From assembly GCA_040752915.1 (NCBI GenBank), contig JBFMHB010000035.1:1-33864 (forward strand): a DNA stretch of 33,864 nt. The letters run 5' to 3'. The notes below the pieces were generated by a model. It worked only from the letters and a program-made list of their open reading frames with translations. It had not been told where the DNA came from and did no database searches. This DNA is from Acidobacteriota bacterium (GTDB lineage Bacteria; Acidobacteriota; UBA4820; DSQY01). Every line of letters begins with the position of its first letter. Position 1 is the first letter of the stretch. Positions 3,691-31,187 of the stretch are shown piece after piece. A program made the translations under genes and the position numbers.

Positions 3691-4479
3691 TCAGAAGCAC
3701 AGGCTGAGGCCGCACAAGACGGCGTCCCTCGGGCCGGGGCCGCGCAGGGCGCGGCGGTAGCCCAGATCCAGGACCAGGTTCTCCGCGGCCCGCAGGCTCA
3801 GGCCCACGAGGGCGAAGGTCGGGTTCTCCCTGAGGTGCCTCTCCGGGTTCTGGCTGCCCTGGACCTCGAGGCACAACTGGACCCTCTCCGAGAGGCGCGC
3901 TTCCAGGGCGCCCCCGTAGAAGGCGTAGTCTCGCACGGCCCCGTTCAGGTGATCGCCCTCCCGCGTGAACCCCACCGAGAGGTGCAGGGTGGAACGGCCA
4001 CGGCTCTTGGAGGCGCCCAGGACGGCCGACAGATCGTTGTCCCCCGTCCCCAGCCCCATGCGCGCGTCCGCCGTGTGGGTCTTCCAGGCAAACCGGAGGG
4101 CAAGCCCCGGACGCCCCGTCTCCTCGCGGACCAGTCGGACCTTCGCGCCCAAGACCAGGTCCCCGAATCCACGTTCAGACTCTCCGCGCGGACCTTCGAG
4201 GGTCACGAAGGGGACCTCCGCAAAGAGCTCCACGCCGCCTCCGACACCCACCGCCGGGACCACGACCCAGACCCGGTCCCGGCCCTTCTCCTCGGTCTCC
4301 CACGTCTCGAATCCCGCCTCCAGGGAAACCTCCCCCTTTTCCGACACGCACGCGTCTTCGGTCACGAACGGCCTGCCCGCCCAGGCCGCGACGGGGACGG
4401 CAAGGAGCAGGGGCAGGCAGAGAGCCCGCATGCGCGCGCGCGGCGCCCCCCCTCTCCTCGGCAGCTTGTTCCTAGGCAT
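3691..4479 (-). CDS. Predicted outer-membrane beta-barrel protein (MetA-pathway/transporter-like)
   Basis: A 262-residue exported protein. A long basic N-terminus (PRNKLPRR..PRARMR) leads to a hydrophobic core, LCLPLLLAVPVAAWA, and likely signal-peptidase cleavage after AWA. The remainder is alternating polar/apolar strands, for example VELFAEVPFVTL, LALRFAWKTHTAD, LHLSVGFTREG and LVLDLGYRRAL. It ends in Phe, as outer-membrane barrels commonly do. The pattern, including GTGDNDLSAVLGASK, resembles the 'MetA-pathway of phenol degradation' outer-membrane family (Pfam PF13557), whose role is poorly defined; I infer a porin or transport role. ATG 4479 is preferred because AGGAGGGAGG lies just upstream. 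An ATG at 4497 falls inside the palindrome and before this site, and one at 4431 would shorten the basic N-terminus. The gene stands alone behind a strong promoter and a large palindrome. Confidence 0.72.
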   Translation of the reverse strand: MPRNKLPRRGGAPRARMRALCLPLLLAVPVAAWAGRPFVTEDACVSEKGEVSLEAGFETWETEEKGRDRVWVVVPAVGVGGGVELFAEVPFVTLEGPRGESERGFGDLVLGAKVRLVREETGRPGLALRFAWKTHTADARMGLGTGDNDLSAVLGASKSRGRSTLHLSVGFTREGDHLNGAVRDYAFYGGALEARLSERVQLCLEVQGSQNPERHLRENPTFALVGLSLRAAENLVLDLGYRRALRGPGPRDAVLCGLSLCF

Positions 4480-4491
4480 TCGGCCTCCCTC

Positions 4492-4523
4492 CTGCATATC
4501 TGAGCGTGTGCTCAGATATGCAG
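4492..4523. promoter_or_regulatory. Perfect inverted repeat, 14-bp arms, likely repressor operator
   Basis: The left arm CTGCATATCTGAGC (4492-4505) and right arm GCTCAGATATGCAG (4510-4523) are exact reverse complements around GTGT. The element starts at the last two bases of the -10 hexamer and covers the expected transcription start of the barrel gene, the classic position of a repressor operator (TetR/AcrR-type by size and symmetry; family is an inference). It ends only 13 nt before the start codon, so the transcript could also form a hairpin beside the ribosome-binding site. No candidate regulator is adjacent. Confidence 0.8.
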
Positions 4524-4549
4524 TATAGGCATCTCGGGGCCGTTGTCAA
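4522..4549 (-). promoter_or_regulatory. Strong sigma70-type promoter of the barrel gene
   Basis: On the minus strand, TTGACA (4549-4544, exact consensus), a 16-nt spacer and TATACT (4527-4522, 5 of 6). The predicted start near 4515 lies inside the palindrome at 4492-4523. This is one of the two best promoter matches in the window. Confidence 0.8.
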
Positions 4550-4679: not shown

Positions 4680-6611
4680 CTACTCCAGGTAGGTGTACCC
4701 CTCGAGGCCGTCTTCGAGAAAGCGCTTGATGCGGGCCGACTCCTTGATGGAAATCCTCCGCTTGTCGATGCTCTCCTCCACGGCGGCCCGGATGGCGTTC
4801 ATCACGTCCCGCTTCTGGTATTGCATGTAGGAGAGGACGTCCCGCACCCGGTCTCCCTCGATGGTCTTGTCGATACGGTACTTGTTGCGTCCCGTCACGG
4901 AGACGTGGACCGTGTTGGTGTCCCCGAACAGGTTGTGCAAGTCCCCCAGGGCCTCCTGGTAGGCCCCCACGAGGAAGACGCCGACGTAGTAGGGCTTCCC
5001 GGCCTCAAGGGGATGGAGGTCAATCGTGTTCCGCACGTCGTGGAGGTCCACGAACTGGTCCACCTTCCCGTCCGAATCGCAGGTGATGTCCGCGATGGTG
5101 GCCTTGCGGGACGGCTTCTCCCTGTGCCGGTGGATCGGGCACATGGGAAAGAGCTGCTTCACCGCCCAGTGGTCGGGGAGGCTCTGGAAGACCGAAAGGT
5201 TGCCGTAGTACGTGTCGCTGATGAAGCGGTCGAGGTGCTCGAGCTCGTCGGGGACGTAATCCAGCGTGTGGATGATCTTCGAAATCTTGAAGCAGACGGC
5301 CCAGAACAGACGCTCCACGAGCGCCCGGTGCTGGAGGGACATCATCCCGACGTTGAAGAGCGTGAGGGTTTCGTCGCGGATCTGAAGGGCGTCGTGATAG
5401 GACTCCTGGAAGTTCTTCACGGAGAGGCCCTTGAGTACCTCCGCCAGGTTTTCCACCCCCTCGGGCACGCCCTCGGGGATTTCGATGGTGAGGTTCTCGT
5501 CCATGAGTTCGCTGCTGCCCAGGACGTTGAAGACGAGGACCGAGTGGTAGGCCACCAGGGCCCTCCCGCTCTCCGAGATGATGTGCGGGTGCTGGATGCC
5601 CTTCTCGGCGCAGATCTCCGACAGGGCGGAAATCACGTCGCTGGCGTACTCCTCCATGGAGTAGTTGGCGCTGGAGGAGAAGTTCGTCTTGCTCCCGTCG
5701 TAGTCCACGGCGAGGCCGCCCCCCACGTCGAAATAGCGGATGGGGACACCGAGGCGCACGAGTTCCGCGAAGATTCGGCTCGACTCCCGCATGGCGTCCT
5801 TGATGCTCTGGATCGAAGTGATCTGGGAGCCGAGGTGAAAATGGATGAGCTGGAGCCGGTCCTCCATGCCGAGGGCCTTGAGCTTCTCCACGGCGTCCAG
5901 GATCTCCGAGGGGAAAAGCCCGAATTTGGACTTGTCCCCGCCGGAGCTCTCCCACTTTCCCCGCCCCCTCGCGGAGAGTTTGGCGCGCACGCCGATGTAC
6001 GGTTTGACCCTCAGCCTCCTGGCCCACTTGATCACGAGGTCGAGTTCGGAGGGCTTTTCCACCACGAGAAAGACCCGGCGCCCCATCTTCGTGGCCCAGA
6101 GCGCCATTTCCACGTACTCGTCGTCCTTGTACCCGTTGCAGACGATGGGCGCCTTCTCGTTGTCCAGGGAGGCGAGCACGATGAGCAGCTCGGCCTTGGT
6201 CCCTGCCTCGAGCCCAAAGTTCCACTCCCGTCCGAACTCCACGATGTCCTCGACCACCTGCCGGTTCTGGTTGACCTTGACGGGATAGACGCCGTGGTAA
6301 CGCCCCCCGTACTCGTACTCCCGGATGGCCCGATCGAAGGCGCCCTGCAGTTCCTCGATGCGCTTCCTGAGGATGTCCGTGAACCGGATGAGCAGGGGCG
6401 GGCTCAGCCCCCGGTCCGTCAGGGCGTCCACAAGCGCCTTGATGTCGAGGGACCGCTGGCGGTTCTTGTCGGGGAGGACGACGACGTTGCCCCGCTCGTT
6501 GATCTCGAAAAACCCCTTGCCCCACTCGGGGATGTTGTACAGCTCGCGCGATTCCTCGATGGACCACTTGGGCAGGGCGGTCTGGTCCTTCAGCTTGATC
6601 CTCTGCACCAT
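4680..6611 (-). CDS. speA: Biosynthetic arginine decarboxylase
   Basis: A 643-residue PLP-dependent enzyme (E. coli SpeA is 658) that converts arginine to agmatine plus CO2, the first step of the agmatine route to putrescine. The N-terminus WSIEESRELYNIPEWGKGFF is typical. GVYPVKVNQNRQVVEDIV carries the PLP-binding lysine. HFHLGSQI and YFDVGGGLAVDYDG are fold-III decarboxylase motifs, and DITCDSDGKVDQF carries the active-site cysteine contributed to the partner subunit. The C-terminus is the usual helical extension. ATG 6611 is preceded by GGAGGTGAGG at good spacing. No agmatine-processing gene (speB or aguA/aguB) is in the window. It lies 125 nt downstream of the RRM gene on the same strand, possibly with its own promoter, though I could not identify one. 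Confidence 0.95.
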   Translation of the reverse strand: MVQRIKLKDQTALPKWSIEESRELYNIPEWGKGFFEINERGNVVVLPDKNRQRSLDIKALVDALTDRGLSPPLLIRFTDILRKRIEELQGAFDRAIREYEYGGRYHGVYPVKVNQNRQVVEDIVEFGREWNFGLEAGTKAELLIVLASLDNEKAPIVCNGYKDDEYVEMALWATKMGRRVFLVVEKPSELDLVIKWARRLRVKPYIGVRAKLSARGRGKWESSGGDKSKFGLFPSEILDAVEKLKALGMEDRLQLIHFHLGSQITSIQSIKDAMRESSRIFAELVRLGVPIRYFDVGGGLAVDYDGSKTNFSSSANYSMEEYASDVISALSEICAEKGIQHPHIISESGRALVAYHSVLVFNVLGSSELMDENLTIEIPEGVPEGVENLAEVLKGLSVKNFQESYHDALQIRDETLTLFNVGMMSLQHRALVERLFWAVCFKISKIIHTLDYVPDELEHLDRFISDTYYGNLSVFQSLPDHWAVKQLFPMCPIHRHREKPSRKATIADITCDSDGKVDQFVDLHDVRNTIDLHPLEAGKPYYVGVFLVGAYQEALGDLHNLFGDTNTVHVSVTGRNKYRIDKTIEGDRVRDVLSYMQYQKRDVMNAIRAAVEESIDKRRISIKESARIKRFLEDGLEGYTYLE

Positions 6612-14188: not shown

Positions 14189-17077
14189 CTACGGCCACTG
14201 CCAGGTGAGGGTCTGGGTGCCGCCGTCGGGATTCTGAAAGACGAATTCCGTGGCGGTGTCCTTCGGGACGGCCGCCTTGAGGGCCGAGCCGCCCTTGAGA
14301 ACGACCTTGGAGGTGCTCTTCCACGATACGTTCGTCCATTCGCTGCCGTTGATGAAGACGCGGATGCCGTTCTGAAGGTTCGTTCCCGTGGCGATGAACC
14401 GGAAGGGATTCGCCTTCTTGGCCATGGCCGTGACGCCGGGCGGAGGAACCACCGCGACGGACCCGGTCCGGATGCAGGTGATTGAACTGCACGACACCGT
14501 TAGGGTCCAGGTGTACGTCCCCGCAGTCGTATAGGTGTGAGACGGCGACGCACCCGTCCCATGGACGGATCCGTCCCCGAAGTCCCAGTCGTAGGCGAGG
14601 CTCCCCGAGTCGCAGAAGGGGTTGAGCGCCGCCGTGGCCGCGAACGAAACGGGCGATTGAACCGGGGCCTGTCCGGGAACGGTGGCGGTGCAGGAGAGGA
14701 CGCAGGGCGCAACGGTCACGTTTCCGCGCCTCAGGCACGTCCGTCCACCCTGGATCACCTCCAGGGTCCAGGCATAGTCGCCGGAGGCCACGTAGGCATG
14801 ATCGGTGATCGGCTCGAGGGAGTGAGGCGACCCGTCCCCGAAGTCCCAGTCGTAGGCGGGCGCGCCCACGCATCCCGCCGCGGCCACACCTCCCTGGAAG
14901 GTCAGGCTGGCCCCAGGGGCGCCCGCTCGGGGCACGGTGGCCGTGCATCCTACGGCGCAGTCCTCCTCCACGTAGGCGCTGAATCCATTGCCCACGCCCA
15001 CGGCCGAGGCGGTCCCCGGTGGCGCCACTTGAACCGGAGTCAGGCGCTGGGCGGTGGTCCCGTCCCCCAGTTTTCCTCCCGTGTTGTCGCCCCAGGCCCA
15101 GACGCTCCCGTCGTCTTTCAGGGCCACCGTGTGGGTCCCCGAACAGGCCACGGAGACCACGCCTACACCCACGAGCACCGGGCTCGTCCGCGTGGTCGTC
15201 GTACCGTCCCCGATCATCCCCTTGTTGTTGTAGCCCCACCCCCAGAGGGTGCCGTCCTCCAGGACCGCGAAGCTCACCTCCCCCCCCGCGAAGACCGCCG
15301 CCGCAGGCCCAGGCAGGCCCGTCACGGGCACGGGTGTGAGGCGGACGGTGGTCGTTCCATCCCCGATTTGCCCCCGGGTGTTCTCCCCCCAGGCCACGAC
15401 CGAGCCGTCCTCGAGCCGCGCCAGACCATGCGCGCTTCCCGCGGCCAGGTCCTCCGCCGTCGTCACGCCGCTCACCTGGACGGGCGTCGTCGTGGAGGTG
15501 GTGGTTCCATCTCCGAGGCGCCCCGAGCCGTTGTTGCCCCACCCCCATACGGTGCCGTCCGATTTTAGAACCAGGGAGAAATCTGCCCCGGAGGCCGCCT
15601 GGAGCGCGTCGCTCAACCCGGCCTTCTGAGAGGGAACATAGGAGTAGCCTTGGAGGTACCCCCCCCACCACCAGACCGTTCCGTCGGACCGGATGGCCGT
15701 CGTGTGCGAGGTTCCCTCCGACAGGTGGACCACGTTCGTCAGGCTTCCCGCCCGGACGGGCGAGGAGGCCGGGGTCTCGTCGAGGCCCGTTCCCAGCCGG
15801 CCGCTCAGGTTGTAGCCCCACCCCCAGGCGGTCCCGTCCTCGGCGAGGGCCGCCGCTTGCTGGTGCCCTCCCGAAACCATGGAGAAAGGCTGGCATCCCG
15901 CCACGGGGCCGAAGGTCCACCTCTCGTAGGTCCTACCGTCCCCGAGCTGCCCGGAATCGTTGGCGCCCCAGACCCAGGCGCTCCCGTCGGGTTTCACGGC
16001 CCCCACGGTCTTTCCAAAGGCCGCCAGGGAGGAGGCCGTTCCGAGGGCCGACGCCGGCGCCGGAGTGAATCCGGACGTGGTCGTGCCGCGCCCGAGCTGG
16101 CCGTACCCGTTGTTTCCCCACCCCCAGGCCGTCCCATCGGCCTCCAGGGCCAAGAAGCAGAGGTAGCCCCCCGCGATGGAGGCGATGGGGGGGAGGCCGG
16201 AAACCTGACCGGGCACGTTCCGGGTTGCGATCATTCCCCACGTCCATACCGTTCCGTCGGCCTTGAGGGCCGCGGCGGACAGGTAGGCCGAGGCGATTCC
16301 CGTCACCCCCGTCAGACCCGTGACTTGGACGGGCGTGGCGCGGTTCGTCCCCGTCCCATCCCCCAGGGCCCCGTAAACGTTGTACCCCCAGGCCCAGACC
16401 GTCCCATCCTGCAAGACGGCGTACGTGGTATACAGGTGGGCCGCCACGGCGAGGGCGGGACCCAGCCCGGCGACGGGGGCGGGGGAGGGCCTTTGGGTGG
16501 TCGTGCCGTCCCCCAAGTACCCGTAAGCATTGCCCCCCCACGTCCAGACCGTTCCCGCGCCGTCCAAGGCTACGGTATGGTCGAATCCTGCGCTGACCTG
16601 GCGGACGTCCGTGAGGCCCGTCACCTGTACAGGTTCGTAGCGGTGCGTGGTGGTGCCGTCGCCCAGGCAGCCACTGCCGTTGTATCCCCAGGCCCACAGA
16701 TTGTGATTCGGGTCCAGGGCGAAGGAGCAACAGTTCCCGGCCCGGACCTTTGTGATGCCCGAGAGAAGGTGCACGGCGCCGGGCGTGGGCCGGTACGAGG
16801 TAGTACCGTCGCCCAACTGTCCGTATGTGTTATCCCCCCAGGCCCACACCGTGCCATCCTCGAGGAGCGCCAGGGTGTGGGTCTCCCCCGGAGATAAGGC
16901 CAGCGCATTCTGGGGCAGGTTCGCCTGCACCGGAAAGGGGGAGCAGACGCGGCTGCCGTCACCCAGTTCCCCCCACAGGCCCCGGCCCGCCGTCTGCACG
17001 GGCCCCGCCGCCCACAAAGCCATCCCTGCCAACACCCCAATGCATACCGCTATCAGGATTCTCTCCGTCGCGCGCAT
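14189..17077 (-). CDS. Large exported RCC1-repeat protein with two PKD domains and IPT-like C-terminus (copy 1)
   Basis: A 962-residue protein. The N-terminus MRATERILIAVCIGVLAGMALW is a signal peptide or anchor. Residues ~31-703 hold 14 RCC1 repeats of pattern W.WG.N..GQLGDGTT...PV.V.GL; the sixth (WTWGMIATRN) and tenth (WWWGGYLQGY) lack the GQLGDGTT loop. Two PKD domains follow (about 704-790 and 791-877), each with YDWDFGDGS and paired cysteines, then an 85-residue IPT/TIG-like module (878-962) starting near VTAMAKKANPFR. RCC1 repeats make seven-bladed propellers, so 14 suggest two propellers. The eukaryotic Ran-exchange function should not be transferred: this is an extracytoplasmic, probably surface or secreted, protein of unknown role. 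ATG 17077 follows GGGGAGGGG. A full-length paralog lies at 28257-31187. Confidence 0.9.
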   Translation of the reverse strand: MRATERILIAVCIGVLAGMALWAAGPVQTAGRGLWGELGDGSRVCSPFPVQANLPQNALALSPGETHTLALLEDGTVWAWGDNTYGQLGDGTTSYRPTPGAVHLLSGITKVRAGNCCSFALDPNHNLWAWGYNGSGCLGDGTTTHRYEPVQVTGLTDVRQVSAGFDHTVALDGAGTVWTWGGNAYGYLGDGTTTQRPSPAPVAGLGPALAVAAHLYTTYAVLQDGTVWAWGYNVYGALGDGTGTNRATPVQVTGLTGVTGIASAYLSAAALKADGTVWTWGMIATRNVPGQVSGLPPIASIAGGYLCFLALEADGTAWGWGNNGYGQLGRGTTTSGFTPAPASALGTASSLAAFGKTVGAVKPDGSAWVWGANDSGQLGDGRTYERWTFGPVAGCQPFSMVSGGHQQAAALAEDGTAWGWGYNLSGRLGTGLDETPASSPVRAGSLTNVVHLSEGTSHTTAIRSDGTVWWWGGYLQGYSYVPSQKAGLSDALQAASGADFSLVLKSDGTVWGWGNNGSGRLGDGTTTSTTTPVQVSGVTTAEDLAAGSAHGLARLEDGSVVAWGENTRGQIGDGTTTVRLTPVPVTGLPGPAAAVFAGGEVSFAVLEDGTLWGWGYNNKGMIGDGTTTTRTSPVLVGVGVVSVACSGTHTVALKDDGSVWAWGDNTGGKLGDGTTAQRLTPVQVAPPGTASAVGVGNGFSAYVEEDCAVGCTATVPRAGAPGASLTFQGGVAAAGCVGAPAYDWDFGDGSPHSLEPITDHAYVASGDYAWTLEVIQGGRTCLRRGNVTVAPCVLSCTATVPGQAPVQSPVSFAATAALNPFCDSGSLAYDWDFGDGSVHGTGASPSHTYTTAGTYTWTLTVSCSSITCIRTGSVAVVPPPGVTAMAKKANPFRFIATGTNLQNGIRVFINGSEWTNVSWKSTSKVVLKGGSALKAAVPKDTATEFVFQNPDGGTQTLTWQWP
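14969..16987 (-). repeat. Coding RCC1 repeat array, 14 units
   Basis: Tandem units of roughly 45-55 codons encode the propeller repeats of the RCC1 protein. The most conserved stretch, coding GQLGDGTTT, recurs at DNA level as variants of GTCGTGCCGTCCCC on the plus strand. The units are diverged, so this is an old protein-domain repeat and not a recent DNA tandem duplication. Confidence 0.8.
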
Positions 17078-27331: not shown

Positions 27332-27360
27332 TTGCATTTCATGAACCAATGACCTAGGAT
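27332..27360 (+). promoter_or_regulatory. Candidate promoter of the GntR-family regulator
   Basis: TTGCAT (27332-27337), a 17-nt spacer and TAGGAT (27355-27360). Hexamers are weak, but spacing is ideal and transcription from about 27367 would place operator 2 just downstream and agree with the start codon at 27398. Confidence 0.4.
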
Positions 27361-27373
27361 GCTTTCAGAACTG

Positions 27374-27384
27374 TGGTCTTACCA
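27374..27384. promoter_or_regulatory. Second GntR/FadR-type operator, in the regulator leader
   Basis: TGGTCTTACCA also fits TGGTNNNACCA, differing from the first site at two of the three central bases. It lies 99 bp from the first site and 13 nt before the regulator's start codon, consistent with autorepression. Confidence 0.72.
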
Positions 27385-27397
27385 GATGGAGCCGCCC

Positions 27398-28126
27398 ATG
27401 CAGATCCGTCCCCTGGAGCGCCGACCGAAACTCAGCCGCCAGGCCGGCGAATACCTCGCGAGGCTCATCAGCGAGGGGGCGCTGAAGGCCGGCGACCGGC
27501 TCCCCTCCGAGTCGGCCCTGGCGCGCCAGCTCGGGGTCAGCCGCCCCACCGTGAGGGAGGCCATCGGCGCCCTCGAGGCGCGGGGGCTCGTGGAAGTGCG
27601 GCCCCGCTCCGGCGTCTTCGTGACCGCGGCGCTCTCCCTGGACGATCCCGAGGGGATCCAGGAGATGATCGCGGTGGACCCGGCCCGCCTCTGGGACCTG
27701 CTGGAGATCCGGAAGATCATCGACGCCGAGGGCGCCGCCCTCGCCGCCGAGCGGCGGACCCCCGAGGACATCCGATCCCTGCGGGCGCTGGCCGAGGAGG
27801 CCCTGGGCCACTCCGCGGAAAACCTCGTCCGGCGCGAAACGGGAGGCAAGGCCTACGTGGCCTTCTTCTCGCTCCTGGCCGCCGCCACCCACAACACGCT
27901 CTTCGACCACTTGAGAAAGTCCATTGACCGCCTCGTGCAGAACGCCCTTCCCGCCAGCCGCCTCCGGCTGCGGGGCCACCCCGAAGCCGGAGAGGCCATC
28001 CGCCTCCAGCTCCTCTCGGTCCTCGACGCCGTGGAGGCCGGCGCCCCCTCCCGGGCCCGGCGCGCCGTGCGCATCCACCTGGAATACCTCGAACAGGTCC
28101 TATTGGGGCCAGGCCGTCCGTCTTAG
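27398..28126 (+). CDS. GntR-family (FadR/FCD-like) transcriptional regulator
   Basis: A 242-residue regulator. The winged helix (about 8-78) shows LISEGALKAGDRLPSESALARQLGVSRPTVREAIGALEARGLVEVRPRSGVFV, here split as family signatures GDRLPSE, SRPTVREA and RSGVFV. The C-terminal all-helical domain has the FCD outline (DLLEIRKIIDAEGAALA, then ARRAVRIHLEYLEQ). The two earlier metal-binding His of typical FCD proteins appear replaced (VAFFSLLAAATHN, IRLQLLSVLDAV), as in FadR, which binds acyl-CoA instead of a metal-linked carboxylate. I infer an acyl-CoA effector. ATG 27398 has GGAG 6 nt upstream; in-frame ATGs at 27359 and 27386 lack sites and overlap the promoter/operator. It diverges from the beta-oxidation cluster and probably represses both it and itself. 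Confidence 0.88.
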   Translation: MQIRPLERRPKLSRQAGEYLARLISEGALKAGDRLPSESALARQLGVSRPTVREAIGALEARGLVEVRPRSGVFVTAALSLDDPEGIQEMIAVDPARLWDLLEIRKIIDAEGAALAAERRTPEDIRSLRALAEEALGHSAENLVRRETGGKAYVAFFSLLAAATHNTLFDHLRKSIDRLVQNALPASRLRLRGHPEAGEAIRLQLLSVLDAVEAGAPSRARRAVRIHLEYLEQVLLGPGRPS

Positions 28127-28256
28127 AGTCTGATCCGTTGCGATGTCCGGAGCGTCGGGGACCCGCACCGGTCTTGTCGAGCCAGGCTATCGTTTGAGGC
28201 TGGACTTTAGAATAGAGCGCCCGGGGGCGGGGTTAAGAGAAATCATGGAGAGGCTC

Positions 28257-31187
28257 ATGGCCAAGATCGGAATTCGGACGGGTGGCGGTGTGGAAAGGGC
28301 TTTTTCCTGGGCTTCTGGCGCGCTTCGGCTGGGGGCCTCGGTCATGCTCGCGGCGGCCTGTGGGGTCGGTCTCGCGCCCCTGGCGCAGTCGATCCACAGC
28401 GCGGGCGGCAACGATCGGGGACAGATCGGCGACGGGGCCACTCCCGTGGCGGCGACCCCCATCCTCCTTCCCGGTCTCGGCCCCGCAAAGGGGGTCAGCG
28501 CCGGAGACGGATTCACGGTGGTCCTGAAGGAGGACGAGACGGTCTGGGCCTTCGGGCGCAACCTGGACGGCCAGTTGGGAAACGGATCCTTCTTCTCCAC
28601 CAGCGCTCCCGTTCAGGTTTCGGGGGTCTCGGGCATCAAGCAGATCTCCGCAGGCCGGAACCACGTCCTCGCCCTCGGCGCCGACGGCTCCGTTTGGGCC
28701 TGGGGCTACAACGGCAGCGGCCTGCTCGGAGACGGGACAACGGTCTCGCGCTCCACGCCCATTCACACGCTGTCGTTGAACACCATCACCAAGGTGGCCG
28801 CCGGACTGGCCCACAGTGTGGCCCTGCACCAGAACGGCACGGTCTATACCTGGGGCGCCAATTACTTCGGCGAACTGGGCGACGGAACCACCACGGGCCG
28901 CCTCCTCCCGGCTCCCGTCCCGGGTCTGACGGACGTCGTGGACATCGCCGCGGGGGGCTTTTTCACCCTGGCGCGGCGGGTGGACGGAACGGTCTGGGCC
29001 TGGGGCGCCAACGCCTCGGGCCAGCTGGGCGACGGAACGACCACGAGCCGGACGAGCCCCGTGCAGGTGGCGGGCCTGTCGGGCGTGGCCGCCCTCGCGG
29101 CGGGCTACGACCACGCCCTGGCCGCGCGCATGGACGGCACGGCCGTTCAGTGGGGGTACGGAGCGGGCTCCACTCCCGTTTCCGTGAGCGGGCTCTCCTC
29201 GGTGCAGTCCGTCGCCGCCGGCAACAAGTACAGCCTCTTCCTCGACGCGGATGGTTCGATCCGGGGCCAGGGCGTGAACTTCTACGGCCAGCTCGGCAAC
29301 GGGACTTGCTCCTCTGCCGCCTCCCTGGGCCCCGTTCTGGCCATCGCCGAGGCGGGCCTCGTGGCGGCGGGGTGGGATTCCGCCGTGGCCGTGGACGGCG
29401 TGGGCGAGGTGTGGACCTGGGGCTCCGATTCGGACGGCCAGCTCGGCGCGGGCCGCCCCACCTTCCGAACGTCCTTCGCCCAGATCTCGGGCGCGGGATC
29501 CATCGTTCAGGCGGCGGGCGGAGCCTCCCACTCGGTGGCCCTCCTTTCCGACGGCACGGTCTCCTCCTGGGGCGACAACTACTACGGGGAACTGGGTATC
29601 GGCGATTACGCCCCCAGCGGGACACCCCTCCCGATCCCCGGCCTCTCTGGGATTGCGCAGGTCGCCGCGGGGGCCTACCACACGCTGGCCCTGAAGGCGG
29701 ACGGCACCGTATGGGTCTGGGGCTACAATTACGACAGCAACCGCTTCCCGACGCAGAAGACCGGGCTCACCCAGGTCGTCGGCGTGGCCGGGGGGGGCGT
29801 GTTCAGCCTCGCCGTCCGGTCCGACGGGACGGTGTGGGGTTGGGGTTCCAACTCGCAGGGCCAGTTGGGCGACGGGACCACGGCCTCCACCTCCGTCCCC
29901 GTCCAGGCCGCCGGGCTCACCCAGGCCACCGCCGTGGCGGCGGGCACCTACCACTCCCTGGCCCTCCGGCAGGACGGGTCCGTCTGGTCCTGGGGCTACA
30001 ATCCCCGCGGGCAGTTGGGCGACGGGACCACGACCAGCCGGCCGACCCCCGGGCCCGTTCTCGGCCTTCCCCTTCCCGCCACCGCCGTGGCCGCGGGGGG
30101 CCATTTCAGCGCCGCCCTTCTCACCGACGGAAGCCTGTGGCTATGGGGAGACAACGAGGATGGGCAGATCGGGGACGGGACCACCGCCAACCGGGCGCTT
30201 CCCGTGGAGGCGGCGGGCCTCCCCCACCCCGTGGCGTCGGTGGCCCTCGGCTACGCCCACGCCCTGGCCGTCCTCGACGACGGAAGCCTCTGGACGTGGG
30301 GCTGGAACGCCTCGGGACAGCTGGGCCAGGGAAATCGCACGGACGCCCATGCTCCGGTGCGGGTGGCCGGCTTCGGGCCCGCCTCCCTGGCCGCCGCGGG
30401 AGCCAACCACAGCCTCCTCCTCAAGGGAGGGTGCTCGGTCTCCTGCTCGGCCCTCGTCCCGGCCTCCGTCCTGTCGGGTTCGCCCGTGAACTTCTCGGCC
30501 TCCGCCTCCGTGAGCCAGTGCGCCGGCGCGCCCGATTTCGCCTGGGACTTCGGAGACGGCTCTCCCCCGGCTTCCGGGGCCGACGTAACCCATTCCTACG
30601 CGCTGGAGGGGACCTACACCTGGACGCTGACGGCCTCGGCCGACGGGGTGACCTGCCAGCGGACCGGGACCCTCACGGTGGCTTCCTGCACCCTGACCTG
30701 CGCCGCCTCGGCGCCAACCCTGCTCAACACAGGGGAGCCGGGCGCCTTCTCGGCCACCGCCCAGGTCTCCGCCGGGTGCGCCGCACCCTCCTTCGCCTGG
30801 GACTTCGGGGACGGCTCGGGCGCCGCCACCTCCGCTTCGGCCCACGCTTACTCGGGGCCCGGAGCGCGCACGTGGACCCTCACCGTCACCTCCGGAGCGC
30901 TGACCTGCACCCGAACGGGGATCGTCACGGTGGTGAATCCGCCCTCCGTCACCGCCCTGGCCAAGAAGACCAACCCCTTCCGCGTCGTCGTCACCGGGAG
31001 CAACCTGCAAAACGGGATGCAGGTCTTCATCGGAGGGACGCCCCACGCCACCGTGACTTACAAGAGCGCCGCCAAGGTGGTCCTCAAGGGCTCGACGCTC
31101 AAGAGCCTCGTCCCCAAGGGCATCCCCACCCTCTTCCGCTTCGTCAACCCCGACGGCGGCTGGGCCGAGTACACCTGGACGAGATAG
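28257..31187 (+). CDS. Large exported RCC1-repeat protein with two PKD domains and IPT-like C-terminus (copy 2)
   Basis: A 976-residue paralog of the 14189-17077 protein. A long N-terminus ends in a hydrophobic segment (LGASVMLAAACGVGLAPLAQS), probably an export signal. Fourteen RCC1 repeats follow, with the sixth (VQWGYGAGST) and tenth (WVWGYNYDSN) degenerate, exactly the positions degenerate in the other copy. Then come two Cys-containing PKD domains (FAWDFGDGS..., twice) and an IPT/TIG-like tail (VTALAKKTNPFRVVVTGSNLQNG...KVVLKG). Likely surface-exposed or secreted; function unknown. ATG 28257 is chosen because GGAGAGG lies just before it; ATG 28245 and a longer frame to 28143 are alternatives with weaker sites. 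A good terminator follows at 31217-31257. It is transcribed away from the regulator gene, which ends 130 nt upstream on the same strand. Confidence 0.88.
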   Translation: MAKIGIRTGGGVERAFSWASGALRLGASVMLAAACGVGLAPLAQSIHSAGGNDRGQIGDGATPVAATPILLPGLGPAKGVSAGDGFTVVLKEDETVWAFGRNLDGQLGNGSFFSTSAPVQVSGVSGIKQISAGRNHVLALGADGSVWAWGYNGSGLLGDGTTVSRSTPIHTLSLNTITKVAAGLAHSVALHQNGTVYTWGANYFGELGDGTTTGRLLPAPVPGLTDVVDIAAGGFFTLARRVDGTVWAWGANASGQLGDGTTTSRTSPVQVAGLSGVAALAAGYDHALAARMDGTAVQWGYGAGSTPVSVSGLSSVQSVAAGNKYSLFLDADGSIRGQGVNFYGQLGNGTCSSAASLGPVLAIAEAGLVAAGWDSAVAVDGVGEVWTWGSDSDGQLGAGRPTFRTSFAQISGAGSIVQAAGGASHSVALLSDGTVSSWGDNYYGELGIGDYAPSGTPLPIPGLSGIAQVAAGAYHTLALKADGTVWVWGYNYDSNRFPTQKTGLTQVVGVAGGGVFSLAVRSDGTVWGWGSNSQGQLGDGTTASTSVPVQAAGLTQATAVAAGTYHSLALRQDGSVWSWGYNPRGQLGDGTTTSRPTPGPVLGLPLPATAVAAGGHFSAALLTDGSLWLWGDNEDGQIGDGTTANRALPVEAAGLPHPVASVALGYAHALAVLDDGSLWTWGWNASGQLGQGNRTDAHAPVRVAGFGPASLAAAGANHSLLLKGGCSVSCSALVPASVLSGSPVNFSASASVSQCAGAPDFAWDFGDGSPPASGADVTHSYALEGTYTWTLTASADGVTCQRTGTLTVASCTLTCAASAPTLLNTGEPGAFSATAQVSAGCAAPSFAWDFGDGSGAATSASAHAYSGPGARTWTLTVTSGALTCTRTGIVTVVNPPSVTALAKKTNPFRVVVTGSNLQNGMQVFIGGTPHATVTYKSAAKVVLKGSTLKSLVPKGIPTLFRFVNPDGGWAEYTWTR
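28394..30430 (+). repeat. Coding RCC1 repeat array, 14 units
   Basis: Units of about 45-55 codons encode the second RCC1 propeller array; the segment coding GQLGDGTT recurs as near-copies of CAGTTGGGCGACGGGACCACG. Diverged repeats, as in copy 1. Confidence 0.8.

Follow-up and report, generated by a model that had tools for sequence, protein, structure and literature searches.

The window analysed here is a stretch of 33,864 nucleotides from an Acidobacteriota contig. It carries a long perfect palindrome over the start of a gene for an outer-membrane barrel, and the locus raises the question of what recognises this element, and whether recognition takes place on the DNA or on the messenger RNA. 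The first-pass annotation had described a palindrome with exact 14-bp arms together with a TTGACA-16-TATACT promoter over the start of the barrel gene, and the coordinates bear this description out. The features of the locus, by position in the window and with the basis of each, are as follows.

3691 to 4479, minus strand: outer-membrane barrel gene (PF13557), from a profile match, a signal peptide and 12 predicted strands.
4484 to 4492, minus strand: Shine-Dalgarno sequence GGAGGGAGG, from the sequence; it abuts the right arm of the palindrome, starting at the palindrome's last base.
4492 to 4523, no strand: palindromic operator, a predicted ArsR/SmtB site, from its arms, its core 12-2-12 repeat and its recurrence before arsR-feoB in the same genome and in 6 relatives.
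4522 to 4527, minus strand: -10 box TATACT, from the sequence, 16 bp from the -35 box.
4544 to 4549, minus strand: -35 box TTGACA, from the sequence, invariant across 8 aligned leaders.

The 32-bp palindrome is made of two arms, [4492-4505] and [4510-4523], which are complementary at 14/14 positions and are separated by a 4-nt spacer. The -10 box TATACT overlaps the palindrome by two bases, its last two being the palindrome's first, and the dyad is centred 14 nt beyond the box. Transcription usually starts 6-9 nt past a -10 box, so the start of the barrel-gene transcript is likely inside the left arm. The core of the palindrome can be described as CATATCTGAGCA-CA-CGCTCAGATATG, that is, two 12-bp halves around 2 bp, placed at the predicted transcription start. 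A perfect arm of at least 14 bp with a spacer of 3-20 nt was found in one of 200 windows simulated with a second-order Markov model.

The reading frame of the barrel gene is open from 4497, where an in-frame ATG sits within the palindrome; the ATG at 4479, rather than this one, is the likely start codon. The gene matches PF13557, which we take to correspond to COG4313, with an E-value of 1.8e-5 and 25.3 bits (Pfam cut-off, 22), and it is the only PF13557 gene found in the source genome. The predicted structure comprises a signal helix followed by 12 strands, with a pLDDT of 80.8 for a model made from 14 sequences. In a Foldseek comparison, FapF (E 1.9e-11) and the COG4313 channel 4rl8 (E 1.4e-7) were both among the best folds, with sequence identities of 13-18% to the barrel. 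The gene looks to be transcribed singly; speA lies upstream of the barrel promoter on the same strand and ends at 4680, and a TIM-barrel gene converges from the other side. Gene order around speA is not conserved: over the flanking sequence compared, the five other window genes tested were beside speA in none of the 8 relatives. Farther along the window, two large proteins with RCC1 repeats and PKD domains (14189-17077, minus strand, and 28143-31187, plus strand) flank fatty-acid degradation genes, which comprise a CoA transferase, an acyl-CoA dehydrogenase with an SCP2 domain, a thiolase and a GntR regulator.

Absence of the element upstream of orthologs, which the first-pass annotation would have held against it, is not strictly applicable to this gene: the scan of genome contigs gave no ortholog, the relatives gave distant homologs with a best identity of 32%, and the palindrome was found before none of the 27 homolog loci examined, which are part of the matches listed.

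The site was sought by its own sequence. When 3 mismatches at most were allowed to ATCTGAGC-N4-GCTCAGAT, this pattern was found across the genome (3.07 Mb in 153 contigs) in the window (0 mismatches), in the leader of an arsR gene at C7:40238 (2 mismatches), and at C45:2138 within a coding frame (3 mismatches). The other close intergenic site in the whole genome is the arsR leader only, with 2 of 16 bases differing. A looser pattern of 12 fixed bases, with at most 2 mismatches, occurs at 14 places; beyond the window and C7, the sole place with 1 mismatch falls inside a coding frame. The genome-wide search that had been proposed thus located a regulator gene with the same site. The action in trans on the barrel gene that the first-pass annotation had called for is traced to a locus on another contig, while the TetR/MarR regulator that it had expected gives way to an ArsR gene, the only good intergenic partner of the window site:

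G000, contig C7, 39857 to 40222, minus strand: arsR, encoding a 122-aa ArsR/SmtB-family repressor, first gene of its operon, with the palindrome in its leader.

The operon on C7 is composed of arsR, then feoB, then a DtxR-C/FeoA gene. The palindrome in its leader has the same promoter position as at the barrel gene and is slightly degenerate. Orthologs of arsR, with identities of 51-73%, are present in 6 of 8 relatives of the same family, with feoB next to arsR in each; the third gene of the operon follows in 5 of these 6, the contig of the sixth stopping inside feoB. In all six, arsR is preceded by the palindrome with no more than one mismatch. The other two relatives, G003 (91% complete) and G007 (67% complete), have neither an arsR ortholog nor a site at 0-1 mismatches. 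A FeoB ortholog was not found in G003, and G007 has one FeoB at 38% and a 30-residue fragment at 63%. Alignment of eight leaders, seven from arsR and one from the barrel gene, shows that TTGACA is invariant, that the -10 box follows 16-17 bp on, and that the dyad centre lies 14-15 nt after the -10 box in every one. The first-pass annotation was very probably right to place an operator over the promoter of the barrel gene.

A scoring matrix was made from the arsR operators of the six relatives only, leaving out both the window site and the genome's own arsR site. With this matrix the window site scores 38.8 bits, and no other place in the window exceeds 3.5 bits. The own arsR site on C7 scores 33.7 bits, so the operator of the barrel gene is nearer to the family consensus than that of the regulator's own gene.

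In a set of 396 genomes of the phylum there are six exact copies of the site, all of them in this family: five precede arsR-feoB and the sixth is that of the window. At a barrel gene the site was seen in this genome alone, and there it has no conservation of its own. Sites with one mismatch number twelve, including the arsR leader of G006. By the beginnings of nearby open reading frames, none of the 11 others (L109-L119) appears to have an ArsR- or PF13557-like gene. At L109, L110 and L111, from other genomes of the phylum, the one-mismatch palindrome (~1501-1520) stands directly before a GGAGGG stretch, which at L110 and L111 is followed by a gene resembling what we take to be the MEMO family; these versions are probably an unrelated element. 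Outside the family, feoB was found beside ArsR relatives at 0 of 23 loci (flanks of ~1.5 kb) and at 0 of 5 Chloroflexi-type loci. At two distant ArsR loci of the phylum (L054 and L056), the gene is preceded by related repeats whose half-site is of the TGAACA type.

The protein encoded by arsR on C7 matches PF01022 (HTH_5) with an E-value of 4.2e-18 and the metalloregulator model NF033788 with 96.9 bits (cut-off, 55). Its best solved relatives are SmtB (1r22, E 1.5e-21) and CzrA. In a gapless alignment with SmtB, residues D94, H96, H107 and D110 fall on SmtB positions 104, 106, 117 and 120. The α5 metal site has been described by the motif DxHx10Hx2E, and SmtB-type operators as 12-2-12 repeats near the start site (sections of PMC8790569). 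The pattern DxHx10Hx2(D/E) is found in 7/7 orthologs, in which D94, H96 and H107 are invariant and the last ligand is D or E. The deduced C7 protein has no cysteine, and the α3N cysteine site is therefore absent from it. Computed directly, then, are the site and its recurrence, its constant placement relative to the promoter, the near absence of other copies, the family of the regulator and the conserved metal-ligand pattern. On these grounds the palindrome is very probably the operator of the α5-type ArsR/SmtB metal sensor encoded on C7, shared with the arsR-feoB operon, and in this genome the barrel gene appears to have been brought into the regulon of ferrous-iron import. The window's contig and C7 are tied to one genome by binning alone.

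Three other explanations were weighed. The first is a hairpin in the mRNA leader, beside the ribosome-binding site, that governs how stable the barrel mRNA is or how well it is translated. The full 32 nt with the leader do fold at -37.0 kcal/mol (z -4.1). Furthermore, the 8-bp core of the arsR leaders breaks symmetry at three points, each of which reads U-G on the sense strand and would be tolerable in an RNA stem, although three cases are too few to decide the matter. However, transcription likely starts within the left arm, and transcripts beginning at 4519 and 4515 fold weakly at best (z -1.65 and 0.09, respectively); nor does the hairpin of the barrel leader pair with the Shine-Dalgarno sequence. 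Pairing across the eight leaders is 97.5% with one double change, no better than in shuffles, 103 of 500 of which reach the same level; the symmetry of a DNA site would by itself account for such pairing. The dyad, moreover, does not shift relative to the -10 box, and it precedes the gene of a DNA-binding regulator. We consider a hairpin very unlikely and the element most likely to act as a DNA operator. The first-pass annotation had allowed for control at either level; the fixed distance to the -10 box and the copies in ArsR leaders strengthen the DNA operator, and the mRNA hairpin gains no support.

The second explanation, a similarly faint prospect, is that the palindrome belongs to a different DNA-binding regulator (TetR, MarR, GntR or another ArsR). 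Palindromic operators are common to many regulator families, three further HTH_5 matches are present in the genome, and the window itself has a GntR gene at 27359-28126. The palindrome nevertheless tracks the arsR-feoB operon through the family, apart from the window the genome has a good intergenic copy only in the leader of the C7 ArsR, and none of the three other HTH_5 loci has the site in its upstream stretch. Finally, a functionless chance hairpin, a terminator or a scattered repeat, for which one can cite the simulated window that also held a perfect arm of this length, is of negligible probability: no U-run follows the palindrome, the six exact copies in the 396 genomes always have the same promoter position, and the genome itself has no further good copies. 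A scattered repeat family, which the first-pass annotation had named as a possible source of the element, is ruled out by the searches of the genome and of the phylum, where the site is nearly unique.

For the shared ArsR operator, the binding, the repression, the identity of the metal, the direction of the response and the cargo of the barrel are matters of inference, and the likely mechanism is as follows. In the ArsR/SmtB family, the apo repressor blocks transcription and ligand binding releases it. A metal-free ArsR dimer on the 12-2-12 repeat would lie over both the downstream edge of the -10 box and the likely start, and would shut RNA polymerase out of both the barrel and the arsR-feoB promoters. 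Metal bound at the α5 site (D94, H96, H107 and D110) would then release the repressor, so that the barrel in the outer membrane would be produced together with the FeoB importer. Known α5 sensors react to an excess of metal, and what they control is in most cases efflux or storage. An iron importer under such a repressor is odd, since the direction of the family rule, applied to an iron importer, would have metal induce import. The metal sensed may therefore be one other than iron, or else this system departs from the rule in its direction or its ligand. An α5 ArsR/SmtB repressor on a feoB operon is unusual, and none of the papers listed in library searches was devoted to one by its title or the opening of its abstract.

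The third gene of the C7 operon (L091:3081-3716) encodes a DtxR metal-binding and dimerisation domain fused to a FeoA domain. No DNA-binding domain was recognised in it in this genome or in the two relatives scanned, and the protein is perhaps an iron sensor stripped of DNA binding that works with FeoB or with ArsR. The source genome has two Fur-family matches. It is possible, though doubtful, that an α5 ArsR/SmtB sensor replaces or complements Fur/DtxR on ferrous-iron import in this family and here also commands a dedicated outer-membrane channel for the same metal, which would make a two-membrane route under one sensor. Metal transport by the barrel is a guess from co-regulation alone. Unspecific porins are generally credited with letting ferrous iron across the outer membrane, and a barrel probably co-regulated with FeoB is therefore a testable candidate. 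The orphan palindrome becomes part of a concrete two-locus regulon, which would link an uncharacterised outer-membrane channel to metal handling.

Among known systems, the channel Pput2725 (PDB 4rl8) resembles the barrel in having 12 strands; the sections of PMC4493636 consulted implicate COG4313 channels in the uptake of hydrophobic molecules and mention no metal-sensor operator for them. Pput2725 and FapF (5o65-5o68) differ from the barrel in that they serve hydrophobic molecules or amyloid export. On the side of the regulator, SmtB, CzrA and AzuR share with the C7 ArsR the family, the α5 ligand pattern, the 12-2-12 palindrome and its position at the start region. However, the half-site here is ATCTGAGC, while theirs is TGAACA-like, and the targets here are an operon for ferrous-iron import and the gene of an outer-membrane channel, while theirs are a metallothionein or an efflux pump. 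Another parallel is ArsR6 of Brucella with its target Omp25D, presumably a member of a barrel family other than that of the PF13557 barrel. As portions of PMC8509827 describe it, ArsR6 is an autoregulated metalloregulator that directly controls the Omp25D gene; the C7 ArsR is likewise predicted to regulate both its own gene and an outer-membrane protein gene located elsewhere. ArsR6 differs in being an activator, with a reported role in Cu/Ni homeostasis. The predicted trans action on a remote gene also has a parallel in AzuR, an α5 relative that represses a gene far from its own through a 12-2-12 repeat (sections of PMC8790569). The repression mechanism itself is well known and ordinary; less usual is that an α5 ArsR, feoB and an outer-membrane channel are found in combination.
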